NCBI GenBank assembly: GCA_947504725.1
Contig: CANNHN010000002.1
Span: 1-64,000 of the forward strand
Source of the DNA: Bacteroidota bacterium
GTDB taxonomy: Bacteria > Bacteroidota > Bacteroidia > 2-12-FULL-35-15
Reading direction: 5' to 3'
Length of the DNA: 64,000 bases
Below are positions 7,801-48,389 of the stretch, in pieces (position 1 is the first letter of the stretch; every line of letters starts with the position of its first letter). Below the pieces are notes generated by a model, which was given only the letters and a program-made list of their open reading frames with translations, did not search any database and was not told the origin of the DNA. The position numbers were made by a program, and so were the translations under genes.

Positions 7801-10800
7801 AGGCCAAACTCTGAATTGGTCATCAGTATTAGACCCATTGTAATATCCAGGAGCAGTTACTTTTAATGGAATAGCATATTCATAATAGTTGTCAGTAAAA
7901 TCTGTTCCCAAACGAACAAAAACATATAAATCATCATTATACAAAGGATCTGCTGTATTTGCTGATGCTTCAGCATGAAGATACATTTTCAACTTTTTGT
8001 ACTGGCGCACATCTAACTCAGTTGTTTTGTATGCAGCACGTGCAGTACCATCTTCCAAATTACAAACCGATAACGACATTGCTTGCTCATTCAAAGCAAC
8101 CAAATTTGCCGAACCGGTATTTATCTCTCTATCAATATTGGGAGGTAAAACATAATTTACTGGTTGTTTGCTTCCATCTTCTTCAATATTAACAGCTCCA
8201 ATATCAAACTGAGTACTTGGATCATCATCTGGCTGATACAATCCAGGTAGCAATAAATCAAATCCATATTTTCTCCAATCGTTACGAACCAATTCTAATT
8301 TTGCAAAACGCAAAGTAATTGGATTGTCGCAACCTTTAATGAACATACGGATAAAACGAATGGACTGAAAGTTATCAATAGAGCCAACTCGAAGGGCATT
8401 CGGATCTTTAATAGGAATTTTAAATTGATACCACGTTATTGGCTTAGAAGTTCCGTCTTTAATATTTTGCCCCGTTGTTTGGTATACATTTGTAATATAA
8501 TTTGTTCCAACACCACCAGCAAAATCACTCGGCTTTAAACCAACTTTGTACTGGTAATAACTTTCAACTGTACTTAAGTTGTTGTCGCGATTAATATCTT
8601 CAATGTTGGGCAACGTTGTAGCTTGTGTAGGAAAAGCACCAGAACTAACAGCAGAGTTCCCCTCTAAACCATTAAATTTTTTATAGCGCTCAACGGTTTT
8701 AATATTTGCTGCATCATACCCACCATCTCTAAAATATTTATAATCATCTCCCGATGGATCTATGCTCACAACTGATTGTTGTAAAGGCGTAAGTGTACTC
8801 AAATATCCATTAAAATGAGTTTGTTCTTGTGCAACGTTCAATCCATCTAATCCAATATCCTGAAATGGTCTATCCCCTTCTTCACTGTTGAAAGCGTTTA
8901 CCAAGGGCTGAATCAATCCAACATACCCCCATGCTGTTGTATCTATTGGCACGTTGTTACCATTGTTTTGAGCAGCCGTACTTGGAGCAGGCAAAACATT
9001 TTCAGCGCTTTTAAATCCATCTCTCAAAACATCTTCCGAAATGTTTCCAATGTCGAAATAAAGTTCCCCTGTTGTACTTGGATTCACAACATCAGAGTTG
9101 AAAGGGTCCATGACCCAAAACTGAATGAACTCAATGTTTGCTGCCTCAAAATCATTGGTACTAATACTACGCATAATACCGCCCCAACGGCTCGTAGGAT
9201 TATTTAAATTTCCATTTACATCTAATCCGGAAGAATAAGGAGAAGGTACACCATCGTAATTGTATTGGCCACGCTCACTTGGATAAAATGATAAATCCAA
9301 TGTTGTTAAAATTATCGGTGTGCCTGATGAAGAAGGTTTATTCGGGAAAACTTCTGTTTCTGGAATTTCACGTGCAAAATTATTTGACATGTCTGTTGTA
9401 TTAATATTGCTAGGAGTAACACCAGATTGCACACGTTGAAACATCGGATCGATGTGATACCAATTTAATTTTGCTCTATTAAATCCATTTGCTGTGTCGT
9501 TTGACAGCCCCCCTTCGGGAAACATTCCCGCAGTTGTTTGTCCTTGTGGAGTACTTGCTAAACTCCATGCACTTTGCGCTTGCAAAGCAATTTCCGACTG
9601 ACTTCCTTCAAAATCATCGATGTATGAATTACCCGCCTTTCCGATTGCTTTGCTATGACCAGGAATTAAATAAGCAAATTCTCCAGCAGCTGTAATGGTA
9701 CTCACCTCTTTGGTTTCGATGAAAGGAATTTTATCAACTAAGCGTGTTAAAAAAGGAGCTTCTGTTCTGTAGTTTGCATCAAATCCAAGAATTGTATTTG
9801 AAATCGGTTCATCACCAATATTTACTTTTTTAGTAAGTGGTCGTTCTGTTAAATTTAAAACGGTCGCTCCAATTGTAAAATCTTTATTGATTCGGTAATC
9901 GAGGTGAGTCCCGAACAATGTTTTTTGCTGAATGGCAAAGAGTGCGTTACTTTCCAAAGAAATTTTGATGGGTGTTCCTGAATTTAAAATTCCTTCATCA
10001 ATAATTTTAACGCGACCCAAAGTATAATCAACGGTATATTGTACGTTCTCTTGCAAAACAATTCCACCTGCTGTAACAGTTACAGAACCTTGCGGAACGT
10101 TAGGCGCGCCTAAAGAAATTTCGGAGCCTCCTGAGCCTTTGTAAGAACCTTTTAATTTGAAACGATTTAAATTTGCAAATACATTTCGAGCAGAAGTAAT
10201 CGTTGAATCATACAATGGATCAAACACATAAGTATTTGCTTCCAAAGGATCACAACCGGCAGCTGTCCCTAAAAATTTTTGTCGCAAATGATCTCCTAAA
10301 GGTTCCACAACAGGAAATACAACACGACCATTGGTTGAATTAATTGTTACACCATCAATAAAATCGAATGCTCCATCTGCAATCTGATCGCTTTGTTGAT
10401 TTAATCGATCGACATTTAATACTTGAATTAATGGTTTTGCTTTGATGTTTGTTTGGCAATCATTCACAGGCAAATAATTAATATCTGTTCCGGTGATTGC
10501 ATTTGTATAAAAAACTTCCAGTTTGAAATCTTGTGCATTCACTTGATAAGCTCCTATGGAATAAATATTTTTCATCATCAAATCCCACATTGGATGTTTT
10601 GTATTTACAGCTGAGCTCTTCAACATTTTTGTGAATAAGGCATCCGGAGAGCTTATTCCATCTGTAGACAATTCACCTACTTTGTAAACAGCTCCATTGT
10701 AAGTATACTCATAGGCTACTGAAAGAATTTGATCAGGATTTAATTGTTGGTTTAAGGATACATATCCCAATCGTGCATTAACAGTATATTCCGATGCCTG

Positions 10801-12189
10801 TAATTTTCTCGCACTACTAACCAATTCGTAATTGACTTGTTGTTTTACAACACCTATTGAAAGCGTATTAATTGCGGCAACAGTCAAATTAATTTTTCTT
10901 ACATCATTTGCTGTACCTGCAGATGCAGCCATATTCGCATACAAATCATTTTGAGAGTTATACGGTAAAATGTCTGCGGGATTATCATTTATGTATGCTT
11001 GTTGATCAACAGGAACGTGAGGTTTTAGTAAATCCGCTCTTCTATCTTCTGCCAACTCTGCAAATGCTACCACACTTCTCACATCATTGGTTGCGCCATT
11101 GGTATTTGAAATCCAAACTTCAATTCGAGTGATACTTGCTTGAGAATTTACAAAAGGTAAATTTGCCAATGCTGAATTAAAGTTGTCGCGAAAAAAATGC
11201 CCTAAGAAAAAGTGTCTATTTGCTTCGTATTGGTCGCCAGGAATATCAAACTTAGTTACTTGTGCACCACCCGTTACTTCTACTTCCGATTTTTTTCCTT
11301 TTTGTTGCGACAAAACACTCGTTACGGTTAATCGTCCAAATTGTAATTGTGTTTTCACACCAAATAAAGTTTGACTACCAGTAATCAACGATCCATTTAA
11401 TGGCAAACTCACGTTACCAGCTTCTATCTTTTTTATGATTTCGTCTTCGTAACCAGTATACTCTAATTTCATTTGATTTTCGTAATCAAATGTAGCTTCA
11501 GTATTGTAACTCGTTGTTAATTTTAATTTGTCTCCAATTTTTCCGACAACGTTCAACTGAATTTTTTCATCAAAATCGAACGTATTTGTTTTACGATTTC
11601 TTACAGGAATAGCTGGGTTTTCTGTTTTAGTTCCGTTGTAGGCGAATATTAACTCAGCAGAACCATTCGGACGAATATCCACTGTGTTACCACCAAAAAT
11701 ACGGTCGAAAATTTCTCCGCCAACATGTAGTTTCGGAATTGCTGTTTTGTTTTGAGCATTTTCACTTTCAGCATGTGAACGGGCATTCCAATAATCTTTT
11801 ACTTGTTTATCGAACATCAATTTTTGATATTCTTCTGCATCTAAAAATGTAGGGGGGCGATAATCCATTCCACCCATTGTTTGATTAATGTTATATTCTC
11901 CAGTAGTTGGGTCATACTCCACATTTGTATTTACGTTGGATGGATTGTTTAACATCAAGCCGCCTCCATTTGGATAATTCAAAGGATCGCCTGTGGATTG
12001 ATCAGTAAAATCAAATGGAAGAATAACTTCTGGATCTTCAGGTGTATCGATTGCAACATATGGTTGATTTGCATCCACCATATCTGCATGATCAAAAGAA
12101 CTTATTTTAGCATCGGAACTAACGATGAGTGAAAGCATTCCGAGGGATGCTCCAGTAACAAGTATATATTTTGTAATCGACTTAGTCAA
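4861..12189 (-). CDS. sprA: T9SS outer-membrane translocon SprA
   Basis: SprA (Sov in Porphyromonas) is the giant 36-strand beta-barrel through which T9SS cargo crosses the outer membrane. It is also needed for gliding in Flavobacterium johnsoniae. This copy has 2442 residues, close to the roughly 2400 usual for the family, and is uninterrupted. A signal peptide (about 1-27, ending SSDA) is followed by the SprA-type segments YNINQTMGGMDYRPP (about 120), FGGNTVDIRPNGSAELIFAY (about 175) and GIVLQENVQYTVDYTLGRVKI (about 740). Alternating beta-strand sequence continues to the end, with the typical last strand 'AGVSLRLTLAN'. The reading frame starts with TTG at 12189. The first in-frame ATG is codon 18 and would cut into the signal sequence, so TTG is the better start. 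It follows ruvA by 16 nt and precedes gcvH. Confidence 0.97.
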   Translation of the reverse strand: MTKSITKYILVTGASLGMLSLIVSSDAKISSFDHADMVDANQPYVAIDTPEDPEVILPFDFTDQSTGDPLNYPNGGGLMLNNPSNVNTNVEYDPTTGEYNINQTMGGMDYRPPTFLDAEEYQKLMFDKQVKDYWNARSHAESENAQNKTAIPKLHVGGEIFDRIFGGNTVDIRPNGSAELIFAYNGTKTENPAIPVRNRKTNTFDFDEKIQLNVVGKIGDKLKLTTSYNTEATFDYENQMKLEYTGYEDEIIKKIEAGNVSLPLNGSLITGSQTLFGVKTQLQFGRLTVTSVLSQQKGKKSEVEVTGGAQVTKFDIPGDQYEANRHFFLGHFFRDNFNSALANLPFVNSQASITRIEVWISNTNGATNDVRSVVAFAELAEDRRADLLKPHVPVDQQAYINDNPADILPYNSQNDLYANMAASAGTANDVRKINLTVAAINTLSIGVVKQQVNYELVSSARKLQASEYTVNARLGYVSLNQQLNPDQILSVAYEYTYNGAVYKVGELSTDGISSPDALFTKMLKSSAVNTKHPMWDLMMKNIYSIGAYQVNAQDFKLEVFYTNAITGTDINYLPVNDCQTNIKAKPLIQVLNVDRLNQQSDQIADGAFDFIDGVTINSTNGRVVFPVVEPLGDHLRQKFLGTAAGCDPLEANTYVFDPLYDSTITSARNVFANLNRFKLKGSYKGSGGSEISLGAPNVPQGSVTVTAGGIVLQENVQYTVDYTLGRVKIIDEGILNSGTPIKISLESNALFAIQQKTLFGTHLDYRINKDFTIGATVLNLTERPLTKKVNIGDEPISNTILGFDANYRTEAPFLTRLVDKIPFIETKEVSTITAAGEFAYLIPGHSKAIGKAGNSYIDDFEGSQSEIALQAQSAWSLASTPQGQTTAGMFPEGGLSNDTANGFNRAKLNWYHIDPMFQRVQSGVTPSNINTTDMSNNFAREIPETEVFPNKPSSSGTPIILTTLDLSFYPSERGQYNYDGVPSPYSSGLDVNGNLNNPTSRWGGIMRSISTNDFEAANIEFIQFWVMDPFNSDVVNPSTTGELYFDIGNISEDVLRDGFKSAENVLPAPSTAAQNNGNNVPIDTTAWGYVGLIQPLVNAFNSEEGDRPFQDIGLDGLNVAQEQTHFNGYLSTLTPLQQSVVSIDPSGDDYKYFRDGGYDAANIKTVERYKKFNGLEGNSAVSSGAFPTQATTLPNIEDINRDNNLSTVESYYQYKVGLKPSDFAGGVGTNYITNVYQTTGQNIKDGTSKPITWYQFKIPIKDPNALRVGSIDNFQSIRFIRMFIKGCDNPITLRFAKLELVRNDWRKYGFDLLLPGLYQPDDDPSTQFDIGAVNIEEDGSKQPVNYVLPPNIDREINTGSANLVALNEQAMSLSVCNLEDGTARAAYKTTELDVRQYKKLKMYLHAEASANTADPLYNDDLYVFVRLGTDFTDNYYEYAIPLKVTAPGYYNGSNTDDQFRVWPEANEMVLEFEKLQAAKQKRNIDLFNGGSVTLTSEYQVPDGSRIITIKGNPNLSAVKTMMVGVRNPKRDGPSDTDDGLPKCAQIWVNELRLSDFDEKGGWASTARLTAKLADFGNISLSGNIYTPGFGSVENKIQERKRATLKQYDLSTSLELGKFLPEQYNIRIPMYVGYSETFITPQYNPLDPDILLAPALNDASVPKNVRDSLKHVTQDYTKRRSINFTNVKKDKGKNSKKSRIYDVENWAATYSYNEQYKRDVNIEYNTQRNYRGGLVYSFAPTPKNYKPFAKTKIFQHKYLQLIKDINFYLMPNKIGFGTDVDRDFATSKNRNTTGGDLIIIPTFNKRFTMGRTYEFKYDITKALKLDYTASNDARILEPQGEIDTGEKKDTLRENFWRGGKTTQFQQQVGVNYTIPINKIPLLDFTSASVRYGGTYGWERAPFNADTLGNTIRNSESMNWNGQLNMITLYNKIPYFKKINAKNNKSNKGKASAITKPGVPKTPQQISDSTKKAKEEKLQILEYVARIIMSVKTVTITYSTTKGTILSGYGQATNMLGMDKNFQGPTAGFVFGSQRDIRDQAIDKDWLVKTQSLNTPYTKTQSQNLNIRANLEPLPDLKIELTATRTQAKSNSEFFRWTPHDSIGPGKYVDHFVGKLPMETGNFSMSFMSYKTSFVKDGEVTFQKFLDARASVSARRGENPASNGTINGFAEGYNATSQDVLIPAFLAAYGGTNPNNVTLDNFPKIPKPNWRVTYDGLSKMEKIKKYFKSFTLSHAYRSSYNVGGYTTNLLWIDNDVADDDFTSIREIVSSIPGNANFLSRDLISSVSISEQWSPLIKLDMTLKNSILVSFEFKKDRNLSLGLTSKTITEVAGQEIVGGLGYRIPNLPLGKAQIKGKPIKSDLNLKVDLSFRKNETVIRRIVEEVSQSTAGTNIISIKVSADYVISEKINIRLFYDRIMNRPVLSNSFPTANTNAGVSLRLTLAN

Positions 12190-12205
12190 AACGAAAAATA
12201 AAAAT

Positions 12206-12793
12206 TTAAAGATTTTTAAGTGCGGATTTAATCAACTGTTCTACTGTTTGTCCTGTTCCTTCTGTTCTAATAATTTTATCTAACACTTTTTCAGCCCCTT
12301 GTTTGTTGAAACCCAACATCACAAGAGCAGATAACGCTTCTTCCTTCAAAGTATTGTTTGAACTTGAAAATATTTCTGCCGATAAATCACCTTTGCCCAT
12401 TTTGTCTTTTAAGTCTACAATCACCCTCTGAGCTGTCTTTTCCCCAATTCCTTTTACACTTTTTATGACTGCAACATTTGCTGTAGCGATAGCATTTTGA
12501 ATTTCTGCAGCTGATAATGAAGAGAGCATAAGCAATGCACTTGTACCACCAACTCCAGAAACAGAAACCAATAAACGAAATAAATTTCTTTCAGATGTTT
12601 CGAAAAAGCCATAAAAGCGAGGCATATCATCCCGTACATACATTTGTTCCGTATACAATTTACATTTTTCGGAATCTCCGATTTTAGTAAATGTATTCAA
12701 GGAAATTTGCATTACATACCCAACTCCACCTGCATCAATCACAACATATGTTGGTGTTTTCTCTACTAATTTTCCTTCTATGTGGTAAATCAT
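12206..12793 (-). CDS. ruvA: Holliday junction branch migration protein RuvA
   Basis: RuvA binds the Holliday junction as a tetramer and loads the RuvB motor. The protein is 195 residues, the usual length. Domain I starts MIYHIEGKLVEKTPTYVVIDAGGVGY. Domain II carries the helix-hairpin-helix segments LLVSVSGVGGTSALLML (about 75-91) and IKSVKGIGEKTAQRVIVDLKDK (about 109-130). The flexible linker leads to a domain III (about 147-195) that contacts RuvB. Its partner ruvB is about 14 kb away at 26.4 kb. It sits between maeB and sprA, a placement I recall as common in Bacteroidota. Confidence 0.97.
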   Translation of the reverse strand: MIYHIEGKLVEKTPTYVVIDAGGVGYVMQISLNTFTKIGDSEKCKLYTEQMYVRDDMPRFYGFFETSERNLFRLLVSVSGVGGTSALLMLSSLSAAEIQNAIATANVAVIKSVKGIGEKTAQRVIVDLKDKMGKGDLSAEIFSSSNNTLKEEALSALVMLGFNKQGAEKVLDKIIRTEGTGQTVEQLIKSALKNL

Positions 12794-12905
12794 TCGTTCA
12801 ATTTTAAAGACGTAATACTTTCAAAACAGTTGCCTATCGCAATCCTTCTCCTATTACTTGAGCATTCTGCGTTGAAGCAGACAAGATCAAATGTGTTAGA
12901 AGAGG

Positions 12906-15176
12906 CTATTTTTTTGCTTGTGCATCCACAACAGCAATCGTAACCATGTTTACAATTTCCCGAACCGAACTACCTAATTGTAAAATGTGTACGGGCTTTT
13001 TCATTCCAATCAATACGGGTCCAATTGCTTCTGCACCGCCCATTTCTTGAAGCAATTTATAAGCAATGTTTCCGGATGCTAAATTTGGAAAGATGAGTGT
13101 GTTTACTTTTTTATCAACTAAATCAGAGAAAGGGAATTGTTCTTTCATCAACTCATCGTTCAATGCAAAGTTTGCTTGCATCTCACCATCTACAATCATT
13201 CCGGGATAGTTCTTTTGTAAAATTTCTGTTGCTTCTCGCATTTTATTTGGCACTTCGCCTTCAGCAGAACCAAAATTGGAATAAGATAATAATGCAATAC
13301 GAGGTGTAATATTAAATTGTTTTACACTGTTTGCAGTTAAAACTGTTATATCCACTAAATCTTGAACGGTAGGATTAACGTTCATTGTAGTATCAGCAAA
13401 GAAAAATGGCCCTTGCTTCGTATTCATGATATACATACCTGCTACTCGTTTTACTCCTTCTTGCACTCCAATAATTTGTAAGGCTGGGCGAATTGGATCA
13501 GCATATTTTCTGGTTAACCCCGAAATCATTGCGTCTGCAGCACCTGTCTCCACCATCATTGCACCAAAGTGATTTCTTTCCTTCATCACTTTTTTAGCTT
13601 CGTACAATGTGAACCCTCTACGTTGACGCTTTTTAAAGAAAATATCTCCAAATGCACTTCTTCTATCATCTTCTGATTTGCTTCTTGGATCAATGATTGG
13701 AATATCTCCCAAATCAAGATTATTATCAGCAATTAATTTTCTAATTTTTTCAGCATCTCCTAAAAGGATTGGTTTTGCAATACCTTCATCGTTTACTTGC
13801 TGCGCAGCTTTTAAAATTTTATAATGATCCGCCTCCGCAAATACCACACGTTTTGGATTTTGCTTTGCTTTGTTTGTGACGTTACGAATAAGTTTATTAT
13901 CTAATCCCAAACGATTAATCAACTCCTGAACATACCCATCCCAATTGGTAATTTTATGCTGAGCTACTCCCGATTCCATTGCAGCTTTTGCTACTGCAGG
14001 AGCAACAGTATAAATCAAGCGAGGATCAATTGGCTTTGGAATAATGTATTCAGGACCAAACGTAATATTTTTTGAATCGTATGCTAAGTTTACCGTTTCA
14101 GGAACAACTTCTTTTGCAAGATTTGCAATGGCGTAAACTGCAGCAAGTTTCATTGCTTCGTTAATCTGAGTTGCACGCACATCTAGTGCTCCACGGAAAA
14201 TAAATGGGAAACCTAAAACGTTATTCACTTGATTAGGATGATCTGAACGGCCTGTTGCCATTATGATATCTGGGCGAGCGGCAATTGCATCAGCATACGG
14301 AATTTCAGGATCTGGATTCGCGAGTGCAAAAACGATTGGTCGTTTTGCCATCGATTGTACCATTTTCTGATTCACAACATTTCCTTTTGAAAGACCAACA
14401 AACACGTCAGCATCTTTCATTGCCTCTTCCAATGTTTTTATTTTTTTGTTATTGCTCGCGAAGAATTTTTTCTGCTCATCCAAATCATCTCTATCTGTGC
14501 GCAACAAACCTTTGCTATCCAACATCAAGATGTTTTCTTTTTTTGCACCTACCGCTATGTATAGTTTCGCACAAGAAATTGCAGAAGCACCTGCTCCATT
14601 CACTACAATTTTCACTTTGTCGATTTTCTTTTTTGCAACTTCACAAGCATTAAGTAGGGCTGCAGCAGAAATGATTGCTGTTCCATGTTGGTCGTCATGC
14701 ATCAAAGGGATCTTTAATTCCTCTTTTAATCTACGTTCTATTTCAAAACATTCTGGCGCTTTGATATCTTCTAAGTTAATTCCTCCAAAAGTGGGAGCAA
14801 TCGCTTTAACAGTATTTACAAAAAGGTCGATGTCGGTTGCATCCACTTCAATGTCGAACACATCGATGTCGGCAAATATTTTGAAAAGGAGTCCTTTCCC
14901 TTCCATCACTGGTTTTGAAGCTAAGGCTCCAATATTCCCAAGTCCCAATACCGCGGTTCCATTCGAAATAACGGCTACCAAGTTGCCTTTAGCTGTATAT
15001 TTATAGGCATCTTCAGGATTCTTTTCAATTTCTAAACATGGTTCTGCTACACCAGGAGAATATGCTAATGAAAGATCGCGCTGTGAACTATGCGGTTTTG
15101 TTGGGATTACCTCAATTTTTCCAGGTCTTCCTTGTGAGTGATAATCCAATGCATCTTGCTTTCTTAATTTTGCCAT
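12906..15176 (-). CDS. maeB: NADP-dependent malic enzyme with C-terminal phosphotransacetylase-like domain
   Basis: It converts malate to pyruvate with CO2 release and NADPH formation. The protein is 756 residues, typical of the MaeB hybrid type. The N-terminal malic enzyme domain (about 1-420) shows the LAYSPGVAEPCLEI active-site segment, the KGNLVAVISNGTAVLGLGNIG segment and a second nucleotide-binding stretch IVVNGAGASAISCAKL. The C-terminal part (about 430-756) resembles phosphate acetyltransferase (RVVFAEADHYKILKAA, DIPIIDPR, and a final GSSVREIVNM). In hybrid malic enzymes this domain is regulatory rather than catalytic. The ATG is preceded by TATATTCG (near 15216), a one-mismatch match to the Bacteroidota -7 box, so this gene may begin the transcript leading to sprA. 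Confidence 0.96.
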   Translation of the reverse strand: MAKLRKQDALDYHSQGRPGKIEVIPTKPHSSQRDLSLAYSPGVAEPCLEIEKNPEDAYKYTAKGNLVAVISNGTAVLGLGNIGALASKPVMEGKGLLFKIFADIDVFDIEVDATDIDLFVNTVKAIAPTFGGINLEDIKAPECFEIERRLKEELKIPLMHDDQHGTAIISAAALLNACEVAKKKIDKVKIVVNGAGASAISCAKLYIAVGAKKENILMLDSKGLLRTDRDDLDEQKKFFASNNKKIKTLEEAMKDADVFVGLSKGNVVNQKMVQSMAKRPIVFALANPDPEIPYADAIAARPDIIMATGRSDHPNQVNNVLGFPFIFRGALDVRATQINEAMKLAAVYAIANLAKEVVPETVNLAYDSKNITFGPEYIIPKPIDPRLIYTVAPAVAKAAMESGVAQHKITNWDGYVQELINRLGLDNKLIRNVTNKAKQNPKRVVFAEADHYKILKAAQQVNDEGIAKPILLGDAEKIRKLIADNNLDLGDIPIIDPRSKSEDDRRSAFGDIFFKKRQRRGFTLYEAKKVMKERNHFGAMMVETGAADAMISGLTRKYADPIRPALQIIGVQEGVKRVAGMYIMNTKQGPFFFADTTMNVNPTVQDLVDITVLTANSVKQFNITPRIALLSYSNFGSAEGEVPNKMREATEILQKNYPGMIVDGEMQANFALNDELMKEQFPFSDLVDKKVNTLIFPNLASGNIAYKLLQEMGGAEAIGPVLIGMKKPVHILQLGSSVREIVNMVTIAVVDAQAKK

Positions 15177-42640: not shown

Positions 42641-42713
42641 TGTCCGATGGTGTAACTGGCAACACGTCTGTTTTTGGTACAGAAGAGTCTAGGTTCGAGC
42701 CCTAGTCGGACAA
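42641..42713 (+). tRNA. trnQ: tRNA-Gln (TTG anticodon)
   Basis: The acceptor stem tgtccga pairs with tcggaca (42706-42712), with discriminator A at 42713. The anticodon stem tctgt/acaga encloses the 7-nt loop ttttggt, giving anticodon TTG (codon CAA). The T-arm ctagg-ttcgagc-cctag is intact. The CCA end is not encoded. Its 3' part is the left attachment site of the integrated element that follows. Confidence 0.97.
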
Positions 42714-42714
42714 C
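42691..42714 (+). repeat. attL: 3' end of tRNA-Gln
   Basis: These 24 nt (aggttcgagc...ctagtcggacaac) match attR at 48366-48389 in 21 positions. The last 13 nt (ctagtcggacaac) are identical. Confidence 0.88.
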
Positions 42715-42726
42715 ACTCAAAATGCG

Positions 42727-42766
42727 AAACCCCTTGTAATACAACATGTTACAAGGGGTTTTTGTT
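42727..42766 (+). terminator. Element-borne terminator after tRNA-Gln
   Basis: A perfect 13-bp stem (aaaccccttgtaa / ttacaaggggttt, 9-nt loop) followed by ttttgttt lies 14 nt past the tRNA. It is inside the element, so it replaces the chromosomal terminator that is now 5.7 kb away. Confidence 0.88.
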
Positions 42767-42770
42767 TGCC

Positions 42771-42792
42771 GTTGTCGGTTCGGTTGTCGGTT
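42771..42792 (+). repeat. Left arm-type repeats (2 x gttgtcggtt)
   Basis: Two direct copies of gttgtcggtt lie at 42771-42780 and 42783-42792, with a 12-nt period. The same 12-nt spacing is seen at the right end (48239 and 48251). Confidence 0.8.
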
Positions 42793-42816
42793 TCTTAATG
42801 TTAATTTAATTTGAAT

Positions 42817-42824
42817 TACATTTG
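42817..42824 (+). promoter_or_regulatory. -7 promoter box for the element cargo gene
   Basis: TACATTTG fits TAnnTTTG and is followed by ctaaa, 16 nt before the ATG at 42841. The -33 position falls at the edge of the arm-type repeats. Confidence 0.55.
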
Positions 42825-42840
42825 CTAAAACTCAGATAAT

Positions 42841-43356
42841 ATGAAAAAAATACTTTTAATTCTAATAGTTCTAATTGCTCCTTTTAGATTATTGACAGCT
42901 CAAAATCTAAAGGCTCTAGATGAAAAAAATGGTTTTAGGGATTATAAATTTGGAGACAGTCTATCTAAGTTTGCAAACTTAAATCTCATAGAGGCAACTA
43001 AGGATAGTTTAACAGGGTACTATATCAAAACAGATGACAAATTAACAATTGGAGAGAATGCTGTCGAAATTATATACGCGTTTTATAGAGGTCAACTTTA
43101 CTCAGTAATTATAAAGACAAAAGGTTATATTAATAGCAGAGGGTTGTTAAAAACCATAGAAGAATTATACGGAAAAGGCTATCAAAGTAATCAGTATATG
43201 GAAAAGTATTATTGGTTTGGAAAAGAATGCACAGCATCCTACGATGAAAATTCAGCAACCCACGATGCGAGAGTTTACTTCAACTCTAAAAAAATTAGCG
43301 AAGTGATTAAAACAGAATCTGAACAAAAGACCAAAAATGCTACAAAAGATATGTAG
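42841..43356 (+). CDS. Secreted protein of unknown function, element cargo
   Basis: The 171-residue protein has a signal peptide (MKKILLILIVLIAPFRLLTAQ). The mature part contains NGFRDYKFGDSLSKFANL and GYYIKTDDKLTIGENAVEIIYAFYRGQLYSVIIKTKG. These make an alpha/beta pattern in which the first segment reads like 'G..G.KFGDSL..F' of small periplasmic proteins. I recognise no family. It is the only plus-strand gene of the element and lies beside attL, the usual place for accessory cargo. It converges on the HTH gene with only 2 nt between the stops. Confidence 0.75.
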   Translation: MKKILLILIVLIAPFRLLTAQNLKALDEKNGFRDYKFGDSLSKFANLNLIEATKDSLTGYYIKTDDKLTIGENAVEIIYAFYRGQLYSVIIKTKGYINSRGLLKTIEELYGKGYQSNQYMEKYYWFGKECTASYDENSATHDARVYFNSKKISEVIKTESEQKTKNATKDM

Positions 43357-43358
43357 TT

Positions 43359-44006
43359 TTAAGGATTATTCAATAACCTTTCAACCTGAATTAATTTTTT
43401 AGGCTCTAATTTCATTATCTGCTCTTGACTTATTGTAAGTCCGTTTATCTGAATAAAATTGTTTTGAGTGTTTATGGTAGTATTACCAGTCAATCCATTC
43501 ATATTACCCATAAATTCTAAGTAGAGTTTACAGGCTCTAATATCCCCACTAACAGCGAATGTAAAAACTCTTGCTAAAACTTTTGCAGTCATAAATTTAA
43601 ACTGTTCAACTTCTAGTAAATATATAGGGTTGCTAGTATATTCTTTTAAATGTTTATCAATTGTCGGTCTACTCAACCCTGTATGTTTTGCAAGTTCTAC
43701 TTTTGAAGGCATACGTCCGTACTCTTGCATTAATGTAGAAATGGCATTCGTTATATGGCTGTGGTTATATTCCCAAAAATGACAACTTAACTCATTACTC
43801 ATTATTAATTCAAATTGTTTTATTAAGGCATCTCTTTCCAATCCTTTTAAATTAATTAATTTAACATTTACTTCCTTCATAAATGCCTTTCTTTCTATCT
43901 CTGTTAGAACATCAAGGTCTTCGTGAGTAATTTGTTTTAAAATCCAAAGATTGTTTTTCTTTAATTCGAATTTTGTAAACTTTTGTAAACCCTTTTTCTT
44001 TTCCAT
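43359..44006 (-). CDS. HTH protein, possibly terminase-small-subunit-like
   Basis: From the ATG at 44006 it is 215 residues. A helix-turn-helix lies near 104-128 (RMPSKVELAKHTGLSRPTIDKHLKEY). It is followed by VEQFKFMTAKVLARVFTFAVSGDIRACKLYLEFMGNMNG, whose 'SGD.RA.KLYLE..G' wording resembles HTH proteins of the phage small-terminase (phBC6A51-like) group. The C-terminus is NTQNNFIQINGLTISQEQIMKL, also like the tails of those proteins. It could be a DNA-packaging recognition protein or only a regulator. The frame extends to a TTG at 44033. The Rep-like gene precedes it by 61 nt. Confidence 0.65.
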   Translation of the reverse strand: MEKKKGLQKFTKFELKKNNLWILKQITHEDLDVLTEIERKAFMKEVNVKLINLKGLERDALIKQFELIMSNELSCHFWEYNHSHITNAISTLMQEYGRMPSKVELAKHTGLSRPTIDKHLKEYTSNPIYLLEVEQFKFMTAKVLARVFTFAVSGDIRACKLYLEFMGNMNGLTGNTTINTQNNFIQINGLTISQEQIMKLEPKKLIQVERLLNNP

Positions 44007-44067
44007 TTTATTGCTATTTGTTTTTATTATCAATTAATACACGCGTGAACAGATTGTGCAATATCAA

Positions 44068-45291
44068 TTAAAATGCAATCTGTTTTCTATACTCCCCTAT
44101 ATCAAATAAGAGTATTCCGTTATATAACTTTTCCTCTTTCTTTAGATAGTTGTTTTTAGGGTTGCTCTTATTGTTTCTGCATTTCTTTGCCTCCTTTCCG
44201 TACATCTTCTCACTACAAAAAACACTTCCCTTTTTCTGAGGGGTAATATCTCTTCCACACGTTATACAATTACGGATAATAGCACCCTGAATTAACCCTT
44301 TATTTGAACTGTTACTTTGGGGACTTTTCAATATTGTTTCAGCTCTTTCAAAAGTGGTTACTTTGGGGACACTTTTATTTTTGAATTGGTTGAGATAATC
44401 ATTAATTTTTTGCTCCGTTGAGGTGTCAATTTTTGTGATTTCGATACTATTTCGTTCTATTATTGAATGAATTGTTTGATGAATGTTTTGTTTGCCATAC
44501 TTCAAAACAAGATTTTTAAAACGTGTTCTTTTCTTTTTTATCTCTTTCCCTTGTCCTTTTAATTCTATCCAGTATTTAGGGTTTCTCCCATTCATTAGAA
44601 CAACTTTCTCTCTTTGAGGTAGCCCTTTAATTTTGATCAAATTATCATACATTAAAACTTCGCTAAATGCCTTTAAAAGACAGGCTCTCAATTTGCTGTA
44701 ATTCTCTGTATTTAACAGGTCGGATAAACATTTTATATCAATATTCCTTTTTCGGAAATACTCCATTTTTTTAACCTTAATCTCGAAACGGAGAATGTTT
44801 TTATCCTGTTGATATTGGAAACCTTTGTTATAAATCTTTAGGTCGTAGTGGTCAAAAGAGAATCTAATTAAATAACCTTTTCCATTGTATTTCTCAACTT
44901 CATACTCTTTGCCCTTATATGACAAAATAGAATTTAAAACACCGTTAACATCAAAGGGGAGTATAACATTAACCCCGAACTCTACATTATGCAAATGGGT
45001 TGTATATGGGTTTAAATCAAACTTTTTAGATAGGTCAATGCACACCTCCACAAAATCTGAAATTGTAAAACGGTTGTAATTGTGAGCGCCTCCGTTGAAA
45101 TACTTATGTACGCTACCGTTGATATTAATATATTTTTCATCAATAATTTTAAACTTTAGGTTCTTATATTCTGCTACTCTGTTTTTAATTTCCCCTTCAC
45201 TATCAACCGTAATATTAAACTCTAGGAGCGGGTTTCTTATCAACTCATTCGGAGTTATGTTTTTGATATTTGTTTTTATAAAATCGAACAT
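44068..45291 (-). CDS. Rep-like protein with C-terminal zinc-ribbon
   Basis: The 407-residue protein has a core resembling plasmid/phage replication initiators (Rep_trans or phage II/X type): HLHNVEFGVNVILPFD (about 101-116) and FDHYDLKIYNKGFQYQQDKNILRFEIKVKKMEYF (about 151-184). The 'IYNKG...(L)RFE.K..' wording is typical of those families. The C-terminal part adds a Cys-rich ribbon (CITCGRDITPQKKGSVFCSE ... KKCRNN, about 344-377). I see no clear HUH motif, so rolling-circle activity is an inference. It follows a hairpin (45356-45384) downstream of the 139-residue gene, a possible origin or processing site. Confidence 0.6.
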   Translation of the reverse strand: MFDFIKTNIKNITPNELIRNPLLEFNITVDSEGEIKNRVAEYKNLKFKIIDEKYININGSVHKYFNGGAHNYNRFTISDFVEVCIDLSKKFDLNPYTTHLHNVEFGVNVILPFDVNGVLNSILSYKGKEYEVEKYNGKGYLIRFSFDHYDLKIYNKGFQYQQDKNILRFEIKVKKMEYFRKRNIDIKCLSDLLNTENYSKLRACLLKAFSEVLMYDNLIKIKGLPQREKVVLMNGRNPKYWIELKGQGKEIKKKRTRFKNLVLKYGKQNIHQTIHSIIERNSIEITKIDTSTEQKINDYLNQFKNKSVPKVTTFERAETILKSPQSNSSNKGLIQGAIIRNCITCGRDITPQKKGSVFCSEKMYGKEAKKCRNNKSNPKNNYLKKEEKLYNGILLFDIGEYRKQIAF

Positions 45292-45355
45292 TATTAGTAT
45301 CTTTGAAATCTGTTAACACTGGTTTAGTTGCCTTTGAAAACGGAAATTGAACATT

Positions 45356-45384
45356 AAAGGGAGCGCCTACGAAACGCTCCCTTT
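45356..45384. other. Hairpin between the element's 139-residue and Rep-like genes
   Basis: A perfect 10-bp stem (aaagggagcg / cgctcccttt, 9-nt loop cctacgaaa) lies 65 nt upstream of the Rep-like start. It may be a terminator, mRNA processing site or replication origin, and the sequence does not decide between them. Confidence 0.6.
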
Positions 45385-45392
45385 TCCTTTTG

Positions 45393-45812
45393 TTACTCCG
45401 TTAAACTTTGAATGAATGAGAGAATGAATTTCACTCTCGCCTCTCGATTTTGGATATAGTAGTTATTGAAATAATAAACTACCAATGTTTTAAAGTCGGT
45501 TGACAGCTCAAACACGCAAAGACTTTTTTTCATTTCTCCTTTCGACCTTTTGTAATCGTCTCCATAATAGAAACCTTCAGCCATTGGAATTAATCCAGTA
45601 AAGAATTGACGTTGTCCGTTTTTGACACGTCCTGTTATCATTTCCTTCGCTCCCTGTTGAACGAACCTTTGTTCTCTCGTCTCTTCTATCTTCAAATCAA
45701 AAGGAAGTCGTGAGAAGTTGATTTTCGAGGGTTCTTTTTCAAAATAACCGCTCTCTCTGTTTAGTTGATACCTCACTACTTTGTAGTGTACGAAATTGAA
45801 CATCTCTTCCAT
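45393..45812 (-). CDS. Element protein of unknown function (139 residues)
   Basis: It encodes 139 residues starting MEEMFNFVHYKVVRYQLNRESGYFEKEPSKINFSRLPFDL. A mid segment GRVKNGQRQFFTGLIPMAEGFYYGDDYKRSKGEMKKSLCVFEL and a C-terminal YYFNNYYIQNREARVKFILSFIQSL complete a mixed alpha/beta protein. No signal peptide or known domain is evident. Its start overlaps the HTH gene stop as TAATG, so the two are translationally coupled and probably act together. Confidence 0.65.
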   Translation of the reverse strand: MEEMFNFVHYKVVRYQLNRESGYFEKEPSKINFSRLPFDLKIEETREQRFVQQGAKEMITGRVKNGQRQFFTGLIPMAEGFYYGDDYKRSKGEMKKSLCVFELSTDFKTLVVYYFNNYYIQNREARVKFILSFIQSLTE

Positions 45813-46108
45813 TACGCTACCCTCCCTAATCCTTTAGTGAATTGACGTTGATTAAGAGAACTGAACACTTCCTCCTTTTTGTAGCGTATGCGAGAACCAA
45901 TACGATAACTAGGGACTAATCCCTTTTTCGTGTAATCGTTCAATGTGGGTAACGAAATGCCTAGAATTTGGGCTGTTGTTTTCCGACTTATGTACTCATT
46001 ATCGGGTTGAGGTGTTTGGTTGTGTTTTTCGAACTCGATTTTTACGGTTTCCGAAATAACCGTTCTCAACTCATTAAGAGGAATTGAACTCATAAGGAAG
46101 TTTTCCAT
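45812..46108 (-). CDS. AlpA/excisionase-like helix-turn-helix protein
   Basis: A 98-residue protein with a MerR-type HTH in its second half: EYISRKTTAQILGISLPTLNDYTKKGLVPSYRIGSRIRYKKEEVFSSL (about 39-86). This is the helix_turn_helix_17/AlpA pattern seen in Bacteroidota excisionases and element regulators. In an element with a tyrosine integrase it probably acts as recombination directionality factor or transcription regulator. Its start lies 71 nt downstream of the 240-residue gene. Confidence 0.85.
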   Translation of the reverse strand: MENFLMSSIPLNELRTVISETVKIEFEKHNQTPQPDNEYISRKTTAQILGISLPTLNDYTKKGLVPSYRIGSRIRYKKEEVFSSLNQRQFTKGLGRVA

Positions 46109-46178
46109 TTTTTGCTGTTTTTAATTGTTTCAGCAAACATAATGGGGGCGTGAAGGGAGGGTGAAATAATTTCGCCCC

Positions 46179-46901
46179 TTAATTTAAATCTCTCAGAAGT
46201 TGGTCTACTTTGTCCTGTATTCGTTCGTTTTGTTTAATTTCGTTATTGAAATACTTTTTTGCATTTCTCTCGTGAATATTTAGTAGATACGATAATAATT
46301 TGAACTTCTTATTTTGTGGTATAGCATTGTCTTTAAATACTTTTAAATCAAAAACACCAATTGACTTCATTAATTGATAACGCGCGTTTGCGGTTTTAAA
46401 ACCTGAAAATTCTGAACTATAATTTTCATCCTTTACCTCTCCTTCATTATCTTCATTTTTATCTAACAAACCATAGTAGTAATGGAGATAATCTCCAACC
46501 TTTATAATTGTATCTCTAAGTTGACTTTTCATTCTTTCGAAAACAAAAGGTCTTTCCATTAAGAAGTTATCCGTAAACTCAAAAAAGGTATATTCAATCC
46601 AGTTATCAGCATTTGCCTCTGGTTTAAATACAGTTCCTAATTCATTATAATATTCGATAATAAATGTCTTTAATTCTTTCTTATAGTTTTCAGCCTTTTG
46701 ACCTTCTAAATTAAATATGTTTTCTAAAATTTCAGCCTCCAATTTTATTGACTTAAGTTCGTTTTCAAGTTCAAAAAATTTTTTGTCCAATTCTTCTCTC
46801 AACTCTTCGTGAGCCTGAAACAGCATATATTCTGGCAATGTCTCTAGTAAAAACCCATTTACTAAGTACTTAAATTCTACCCAATTTTGAAATCTTATCA
46901 T
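46179..46901 (-). CDS. Element protein of unknown function (240 residues)
   Basis: A helix-rich 240-residue protein: MIRFQNWVEFKYLVNGFLLETLPEYMLFQAHEELREELDKKFFELENELKS has a coiled-coil section (about 30-60), and the C-terminus is charged (ERNAKKYFNNEIKQNERIQDKVDQLL). There is no signal peptide or known family. Its ATG overlaps the integrase stop by 4 nt (ATGA), so it is made together with the integrase. A DNA-bending or recombination accessory role is possible but not shown. Confidence 0.65.
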   Translation of the reverse strand: MIRFQNWVEFKYLVNGFLLETLPEYMLFQAHEELREELDKKFFELENELKSIKLEAEILENIFNLEGQKAENYKKELKTFIIEYYNELGTVFKPEANADNWIEYTFFEFTDNFLMERPFVFERMKSQLRDTIIKVGDYLHYYYGLLDKNEDNEGEVKDENYSSEFSGFKTANARYQLMKSIGVFDLKVFKDNAIPQNKKFKLLSYLLNIHERNAKKYFNNEIKQNERIQDKVDQLLRDLN

Positions 46902-48190
46902 ACTGCCTTTAAATTAGTTTGACTATTCATATACATTTCTAAAATCTTTGCCTTTTCATTACTTGTTATTTTGATGTATTTAAAAAACGCCTCTTCTGTT
47001 TTGTGTCCTGTTACCCCCATTATTACTATTGGTGGGACACCCGCTAAATAAAGATTTGAGGCGAAACTTCTACGAGCTGTATGACTTGAAATCAATTCGT
47101 ACTTCTTTGAATTGGTATGTTTCGTTACACCTCCTCGAGTTGTTTTTACTGATGTGCTAACTTGTAGGCTCTTTATCTTCTCCTTATTATTTGCTAGTTC
47201 TTTCAAGTATTGATTCATTTTTTGGTTCGAAATACTAGGAGGCAATTGATTGTTATACTTTTTGAATATTGCCTCAACTTTAGGGTGCAAAGGTATTTTA
47301 ACTGTTTCCCCTGTTTTTTGGGTTTCGATTTCAATAATCTTTCCTTTGAAATTTTTAGGGCGCAATTGAGTAAAGTCAGAAAACCTTAATCCAGTATAAC
47401 AACCAATCAAAAACAAATCTCTCACTCTTTCTAATCGTTCGCTATTTGAAAGGTCTAAATGATAAAGGTCGTTTAACTCCTCCTCTGTTAAATATACGTT
47501 GTTAATCTTCTCAGATATAACACGAAATCGTTTGCTCCGAAATGCGAGGTTTGAATTAACCCCTCTTTCAGTTGCCTCGTTTAAAACCGTTTTAATGACC
47601 TTAATAACCTTTCCAATAGTATTTGTAGCGAACTTCTTTGTATTGATTAAATACTCACTAAAATCGTGGTAAAAATCGAGGTCAATAGTATCGAAATCAA
47701 TTCTCTTTTTCTTAATTCGGGAATATTCTTTTATGTGAGTAAAGGAGTTATTATACTTTTTGATTGTGCTACCCGCAATTATTCGCCCTGTATGAATGTT
47801 TGTTCGGGTTTTCGACTCTTCAATGTACTTTTTGAAAAACCCGAAAAAGTCAAAAGGAGTTTCTTTAATATCGCTAAGTTCGTTATTGAGTAAATCTCTT
47901 AACACCTCAACTGTCGGTTGTCTTTTGTTGTCATTTATATACCTCCGAAACAAATCCTTTGCGGTTTCCTGTAAATCGTCTAATCTCGAATTGAGTTCTG
48001 AATGACTTTTAATCTTTCGTGTTTGGGTTGCCCTCTGAAAGTCTGACTTTGATTTGTCGGTTTGCCAATATTTTGGGTTCACCGTTTCGCCTGTTGGATA
48101 AACGAGCCTTTTATTATCCCAACGGATAACAAAATTAATAGGAGTTGAGGAGGTGTTGACCTCTCTGAGATTGAAGTTATACTTTGCCAT
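46898..48190 (-). CDS. Tyrosine recombinase / phage-type integrase
   Basis: From the ATG at 48190 it is 430 residues. It has an arm-binding N-terminus (NFVIRWDNKRLVYPTGETVNPKYWQ), a SAM-like core-binding domain (about 115-205) and a catalytic domain with the full set R269 (GCYTGLRFSDF), H370 and R373 (SSHTARRSF), H396 (GVTGHKT) and the nucleophile Y405 (AFFKYIKI). It inserts and excises the element at the tRNA-Gln 3' end. The frame opens at a TTG (48217), but that codon is inside a TATATTTG promoter box, so MAKYNFNLREV is the better start. It is the first gene of the element's minus-strand run. Confidence 0.96.
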   Translation of the reverse strand: MAKYNFNLREVNTSSTPINFVIRWDNKRLVYPTGETVNPKYWQTDKSKSDFQRATQTRKIKSHSELNSRLDDLQETAKDLFRRYINDNKRQPTVEVLRDLLNNELSDIKETPFDFFGFFKKYIEESKTRTNIHTGRIIAGSTIKKYNNSFTHIKEYSRIKKKRIDFDTIDLDFYHDFSEYLINTKKFATNTIGKVIKVIKTVLNEATERGVNSNLAFRSKRFRVISEKINNVYLTEEELNDLYHLDLSNSERLERVRDLFLIGCYTGLRFSDFTQLRPKNFKGKIIEIETQKTGETVKIPLHPKVEAIFKKYNNQLPPSISNQKMNQYLKELANNKEKIKSLQVSTSVKTTRGGVTKHTNSKKYELISSHTARRSFASNLYLAGVPPIVIMGVTGHKTEEAFFKYIKITSNEKAKILEMYMNSQTNLKAV

Positions 48191-48214
48191 TGTTTCTACG
48201 AAAATTGAACATTG

Positions 48215-48222
48215 CAAATATA
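48215..48222 (-). promoter_or_regulatory. -7 promoter box for the integrase operon
   Basis: On the minus strand TATATTTG fits TAnnTTTG, 24 nt before the ATG at 48190. The -33 region runs into the right arm-type repeats, so integrase binding there would repress its own promoter. Confidence 0.6.
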
Positions 48223-48238
48223 TACTAAAAATCGCTCC

Positions 48239-48279
48239 GTTGTCGGTTTGGTTGTCGGTTTTTCTTTTCGTTGTCGGTT
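48239..48279 (+). repeat. Right arm-type repeats (3 x gttgtcggtt)
   Basis: Direct copies of gttgtcggtt lie at 48239-48248, 48251-48260 and 48270-48279. The first two have the same 12-nt spacing as the left pair. They are in the same orientation as the left copies. Confidence 0.85.
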
Positions 48280-48302
48280 TTAGTTTAATCTATCTTAATT
48301 CC

Positions 48303-48310
48303 TATATTTG
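48303..48310 (+). promoter_or_regulatory. Outward-facing -7 box near attR
   Basis: TATATTTG followed by ctaaa matches the box near attL (42817). It reads toward attR and a 14-codon ORF (48321-48365). In the excised circle it would read across attP toward the left end. Confidence 0.5.
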
Positions 48311-48365
48311 CTAAATATTAATGTTTACAAAGGTTTCAATAAGATTAAAGAAAATGGAGGAATAA

Positions 48366-48389
48366 AGGTTCGTGTTCTAGTCGGACAAC
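48366..48389 (+). repeat. attR: copy of tRNA-Gln 3' end
   Basis: It matches attL in 21 of 24 positions, with the last 13 (ctagtcggacaac) identical. The copy has no anticodon arm, so it is not a tRNA gene. Confidence 0.88.

Follow-up and report, generated by a model that had tools for sequence, protein, structure and literature searches.

A 5.7-kb integrative element with a rolling-circle-type initiator at a Bacteroidota tRNA-Gln gene: a candidate minimal phage satellite

Described families of phage satellites come mainly from Proteobacteria and Firmicutes. Those of the PICI/SaPI type carry an integrase, an AlpA-like regulator, a replication gene and a gene resembling that of the terminase small subunit (TerS), and have no structural genes. 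The PICMIs of Vibrionaceae are about 6 kb long and hold six genes (an integrase gene, alpA, often one unknown gene and then a replication gene, with no capsid genes), and rolling-circle multimers with headful-like packaging of concatemers have been reported for them (PMC10803314). Here, we describe an element in a 64-kb stretch of Bacteroidota DNA (GCA_947504725.1, contig CANNHN010000002.1, positions 1 to 64,000; hereafter, the window) that is, in our judgment, very probably a mobile rolling-circle element. It is also probably a minimal Bacteroidota phage satellite that works like PICIs and PICMIs while being a member of neither, and whose packaging would depend on a helper phage.

PICMIs are the closest described analogue, being similar in size, in the order of integrase gene, alpA, one gene and replication gene, and in the absence of capsid genes. 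However, they encode a primase, use the fis site in Vibrio and have no terS homologue, whereas the element described here encodes a Rep_trans initiator, sits at tRNA-Gln in a member of the Bacteroidia and carries a TerS-like gene; none of its proteins matched a primase or helicase. The integrase, the AlpA-like regulator and a replication gene recur in the element, as does the lack of any match to virion structural genes among its proteins, and it is likewise flanked by att repeats; its HTH gene may correspond to terS. Its Rep_trans initiator nevertheless stands in place of pri-rep, and neither a ppi gene nor a stl/str pair was recognised (no divergent pair of that kind is seen in the element). 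Because its replication protein and its site of integration are of other kinds, the element is neither a PICMI nor a classical PICI. Among other candidates, a 10-kb island of Riemerella was set aside as a possible relative, as its text mentions no AlpA (PMC6764341), and the Charybdis elements are different, having archaeal hosts (PMC12324425).

Integration at tRNA-Gln and relatives across Bacteroidia

The element is bounded by exact copies of the last 13 nucleotides (nt) of tRNA-Gln, CTAGTCGGACAAC, which occur only twice in the window (Table 1). These cores, picked out in an earlier note made from the letters of this DNA, are nested in a 33-nt repeat that is 79% identical, and a given 13-mer would turn up by chance within 6 kb with a probability of roughly 1e-4. 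The 10-mer GTTGTCGGTT is present in five copies in the window, in a single orientation and all just inside the two element ends, as expected of integrase arm sites, for which they are candidates by anatomy; a simple k-mer test did not detect repeats of this form in most relatives. The empty attB that the earlier note proposed to look for was found in silico in a congener (G031, locus L100), where no insert separates the DUF2723 gene, tRNA-Gln and the PPIase gene, and the flanks from the window, once joined, align across the site. Two further congeners have a related Rep (E ≤1e-3), one of them being a mere C-terminal remnant with stops and no surrounding element (G027:C26:63606-63950, L005), and single-sequence searches found no Rep relative in the remaining congeners. 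Other, distantly related integrases lie near the same tRNA-Gln in congeners (L104, L105, L106, L111, L115 and L116). Given the empty site, the presence that varies among congeners (invariant presence would have counted against the earlier note's reading) and these other integrases, the element is mobile and occupies an integration hot spot.

A scan with the Rep alignment retrieved 38 loci, almost all of them in assemblies of Bacteroidota, and a larger Rep profile found matches in 41 of the 395 Bacteroidia genomes sampled, representing 34 of 196 genera. The shared gene order, sited at tRNA or tmRNA genes, is integrase, a variable protein, alpA, often a small protein, rep and a cassette. When 60 Rep loci were searched for this order, an alpA-type gene lay upstream on the same strand in 51, an integrase gene in 44 and both in 42, as counted with hidden Markov models built partly from those loci. 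Repeats of 13–19 nt, derived from tRNA or tmRNA 3' ends and about 5–9 kb apart, bound 14 of the elements. Rep relatives were absent from 72,556 plasmid records (PLSDB), and phage records yielded one, in an unannotated gut record. Literature searches returned no description of this family or of any Bacteroidota satellite family, and the relatives are apparently an undescribed family of 5–9 kb elements. On balance, we lean toward a satellite family native to Bacteroidota, found in around a tenth of sampled Bacteroidia genomes and characterised by a Rep_trans initiator of plasmid or filamentous-phage type and an exchangeable slot behind rep for captured TerS-like or baseplate genes. Two family elements are apparently arranged in tandem in a Tenacibaculum metagenome-assembled genome (L026:3206-7178 and 8886-13072).

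Rep, its putative origin and the remaining genes

By sequence, Rep had no PDB match, whether searched singly or as a profile, and the window protein alone matched no Pfam family; PF02486 was matched by one other of the 36 Rep family members (E 0.0017). An AlphaFold model based on the alignment of 36 relatives (mean pLDDT 87.6) found its best PDB matches in pT181-family initiators from Staphylococcus and Geobacillus plasmids, with Z scores of 10.9–11.4 over 213–234 residues (4cij, Z 11.4, 213 aligned residues, 4.2 Å; 4cwe, Z 11.0; 4cwc, Z 10.9), while the next fold, TBP, reached a Z of about 6. The published active site of this initiator family consists of R-x-Y-x-K-xx-E/Q and three carboxylates (PMC4797284). 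Rep has a set of similar spacing (K152-I-Y154-N-K156-GF-Q159, with D3, E104 and E170), which was assigned by motif and spacing against the published site rather than by residue-level superposition, and these residues are invariant or at least 90% conserved across the 36 sequences. Compared with RepDE and RepSTK1 (PMC4797284), the nicking-domain fold and catalytic residues are alike, but sequence identity is about 10%, and Rep adds a Cys-rich C-terminus and resides in an integrative element. Based on the modelled initiator fold and conserved catalytic residues, Rep is very probably an active nicking initiator, and the earlier guess that this protein was Rep-like was borne out by structure prediction. 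A Rep relative also occurs just upstream of the terminase in a tailed-phage locus with a portal gene and a terminase large subunit (TerL) gene (L039:6818-8305, also L055; TerL phrog_9, E 6e-126). An HNH domain is present in one Rep of the set which, judging from its position, is the one at L039.

A hairpin lies directly upstream of rep. The L016 relative, with a Rep 58% identical to that of the window, has at the same distance a hairpin that bears the identical 9-nt loop (TTTCGTAGG) on a different yet paired stem. Retention of the loop while the stem changed suits a Rep nick site, and from these two sequences the hairpin is a possible origin; it may instead be a terminator.

All seven genes of the element are open. 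The intact tyrosine integrase of the earlier note is confirmed by two Pfam domains above cut-off (Phage_int_SAM_5 and Phage_integrase), as is its AlpA-like helix-turn-helix (HTH) protein by HTH_17, also above cut-off, together with a match to the excisionase/regulator family phrog_66 (E 2e-8). Of the two proteins listed there as unknown, the one of 139 amino acids has family members encoded between alpA and rep in relatives, and the one of 240 amino acids matched no Pfam family. No Pfam domain was common to 26 members filling the variable slot between the integrase gene and alpA, and a guess that the protein of this slot is RteC-like was not supported. In one relative (1 of 26 members, alignment A11), a leucine-rich-repeat protein fills this slot. 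The cargo protein matched no family, and PADLOC returned no match that would indicate a defence role for cargo genes.

Phage-related cassette genes behind rep

The slot behind rep, which holds the 215-residue HTH protein in the window, is filled by phage-related genes in relatives. TerS-like DUF5681 proteins occupy it in six loci (L016, L017, L018, L020, L023 and L184), and in two other genomes, by inspection of the sequence, DUF5681-type genes are located directly upstream of TerL-like genes. Three further elements (L027, from Maribacter ulvicola DSM 15366, L028 and L031) carry, within their att boundaries, a homologue of a phage baseplate hub (phrog_5233, E 1e-13 to 1e-19) that has a relative in Winogradskyella phage Peternella_1. 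Of 15 DUF6046-bearing regions sampled independently from other genomes, 14 fall within Peternella-like clusters of sheath, tape-measure and hub genes (Mu-like prophage tails). The DUF5681 and baseplate genes therefore show that the small elements repeatedly carry single phage morphogenesis genes. A possible role of the orphan baseplate genes is interference with, or retargeting of, helper tails.

As for the HTH protein, PHROG family 24579, of terminase small subunits, is hit by 11 of 19 members of the HTH family. The hits (best E 3e-12) span about 80 residues, extending beyond the HTH, and two other members of family 24579 adjoin TerL-like genes. Among viral structures, a DNA-packaging small subunit came closest to the HTH protein (E 0.017, with a weak model), and every listed match among solved structures was to an HTH domain of the sigma, TetR or a similar type. 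Relatives of the protein are found inside elements of the same type (L034, from Segetibacter aerophilus, L076 and L080), and tblastn of the HTH proteins tried against phage records returned no TerS relatives.

Table 1. Features of the element in the window and of baseplate genes in relatives
Feature	Position	Strand	Remarks
Element, 5.7 kb	42702-48389		Bounded by exact 13-nt copies of tRNA-Gln 3' end
tRNA-Gln(ttg)	42641..42714	+	Integration target; 3' end is left attachment site; ARAGORN
attL core CTAGTCGGACAAC	42702..42714	+	Exact repeat
Arm-type repeats GTTGTCGGTT, two	42771-42780, 42783-42792	+	Left end; candidates
Cargo gene	42841..43356	+	171 aa; N-terminus looks secreted
HTH protein, TerS-like	43359..44006	-	215 aa, or 224 aa if a TTG start at 44033 is used
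Rep	44068..45291	-	407 aa; Rep_trans/pT181-type rolling-circle initiator; Cys-rich C-terminal extension
Hairpin	45356..45384	.	Directly upstream of rep; 9-nt loop TTTCGTAGG; candidate double-strand origin, or terminator
Small protein	45393..45812	-	139 aa; family between alpA and rep in relatives
AlpA-like HTH_17 protein	45812..46108	-	98 aa; candidate excisionase/activator
Variable-slot protein	46179..46901	-	240 aa; between integrase gene and alpA; no Pfam family
Tyrosine integrase	46898..48217	-	439 aa; sequence shows HxxR, GH and Y motifs
Arm-type repeats GTTGTCGGTT, three	48239-48248, 48251-48260, 48270-48279	+	Right end; candidates
attR core CTAGTCGGACAAC	48377..48389	+	In 33-nt imperfect repeat from 48357; empty site in congener
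Orphan baseplate-hub (DUF6046) genes	L027:8744-9373, L028:8434-9012, L031:8424-8984		In relatives

A probable satellite and its alternatives

Elements that have an integrase, an AlpA-like protein and a replicon of their own, and that repeatedly acquire packaging or tail genes from phages, behave as satellites do, and for this reason we favour the satellite reading. As suggested by the anatomy, the element would be excised from tRNA-Gln by its tyrosine integrase, helped by the AlpA-like protein as excisionase or activator. Rep would then nick an origin, possibly at the hairpin, via Y154 and copy the circle by rolling circle into multimers, a chemistry consistent with its fold and with the conservation of its catalytic residues. 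The HTH protein may act as a surrogate TerS that steers the terminase of a helper onto element DNA, and the packaged element would be injected into a new cell, where it would reintegrate at tRNA-Gln.

Several observations weigh against this reading, particularly as regards packaging. The window HTH protein alone scores family 24579 at E 0.016, and TetR-type proteins also reach about 1e-4 with that family. Profile comparison of the HTH protein with TerL-adjacent TerS proteins gave a probability of 74% (39% for TetR), confined to the HTH region, and the C-terminal half of the protein is poorly modelled. Relatives also exist as solitary chromosomal genes. No convincing TerL, and hence no helper prophage, was found in the host genome. 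Moreover, five IMG/VR scans with Rep queries recovered three contigs of 24–48 kb and no free small element, an absence that says little because the library selects for viral hallmarks. The TerS-like character that the earlier note gave the HTH protein thus holds better for its family than for the window member taken singly, and we slightly favour the view that the latter acts as a TerS. Short HTH relatives stand alone in the chromosomes of one genus (g45; L085-L090, HTH gene near 8 kb, or at 6.1 kb in L089), in two cases beside ParA/ParB-like genes, and are possibly domesticated.

The element could instead be an integrative mobilisable element, in which Rep would be a MOBT-like relaxase nicking oriT and a resident integrative and conjugative element or plasmid would supply the conjugation pore. 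MOBT relaxases contain a Rep_trans domain, with which Rep shares fold and chemistry, and Bacteroides is known to harbour small mobilisable elements with integrases, NBUs among them (PMC11389934). The MOBT elements of Firmicutes thus have an integrase and a Rep_trans-domain protein in common with the element. However, MOBT relaxases fuse an HTH to this domain (PMC11389934), whereas the catalytic domain of Rep begins at residue 1, its C-terminus is Cys-rich and no HTH family was matched in Pfam. NBU-type elements have a Mob relaxase gene, but none of the seven element proteins matched a relaxase or coupling-protein family, and no gene points to conjugation alone, which the earlier note had named as a finding that would speak against a satellite. 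The absence of an HTH domain from Rep, along with relatives whose cassettes hold phage packaging and tail genes, weakens this alternative, which is the chief rival, and we regard it as unlikely.

We consider it rather improbable that the element is an integrative plasmid, that is, a rolling-circle replicon that has an integrase and is spread passively or through natural transformation, its HTH protein being a copy-number or host regulator. The plasmid-type Rep, the similarity of the HTH domain to generic sigma/TetR-type folds and the solitary chromosomal relatives would fit, but the lack of Rep relatives in PLSDB does not, and the TerS-like and baseplate genes that recur behind rep would be left unexplained. 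A decayed small single-stranded DNA prophage of inovirus type that lost its structural genes is very unlikely. While the element is of suitable size and Rep finds its nearest viral folds in inovirus gene II proteins, Inoviridae have a Zot-like morphogenesis ATPase and coat genes, neither of which was matched among the seven proteins, and a gene order that recurs over many genera is unlike decay. Of the minimal Bacteroidota satellite proposed in the earlier note, the integrative element and its integrase–alpA–rep anatomy are now substantiated, and the phage genes of relatives speak independently for a satellite; Rep is unlike the PICI type, and packaging by a helper stays conjectural.

If the satellite reading is correct, a large class of parasites would be added to the phages of gut and marine Bacteroidota, and rolling-circle initiators would be shown to be able to power satellites. 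The family would provide small testable systems, and the three relatives with orphan baseplate genes raise the question of whether helper tails, too, are disturbed or retargeted by satellites.

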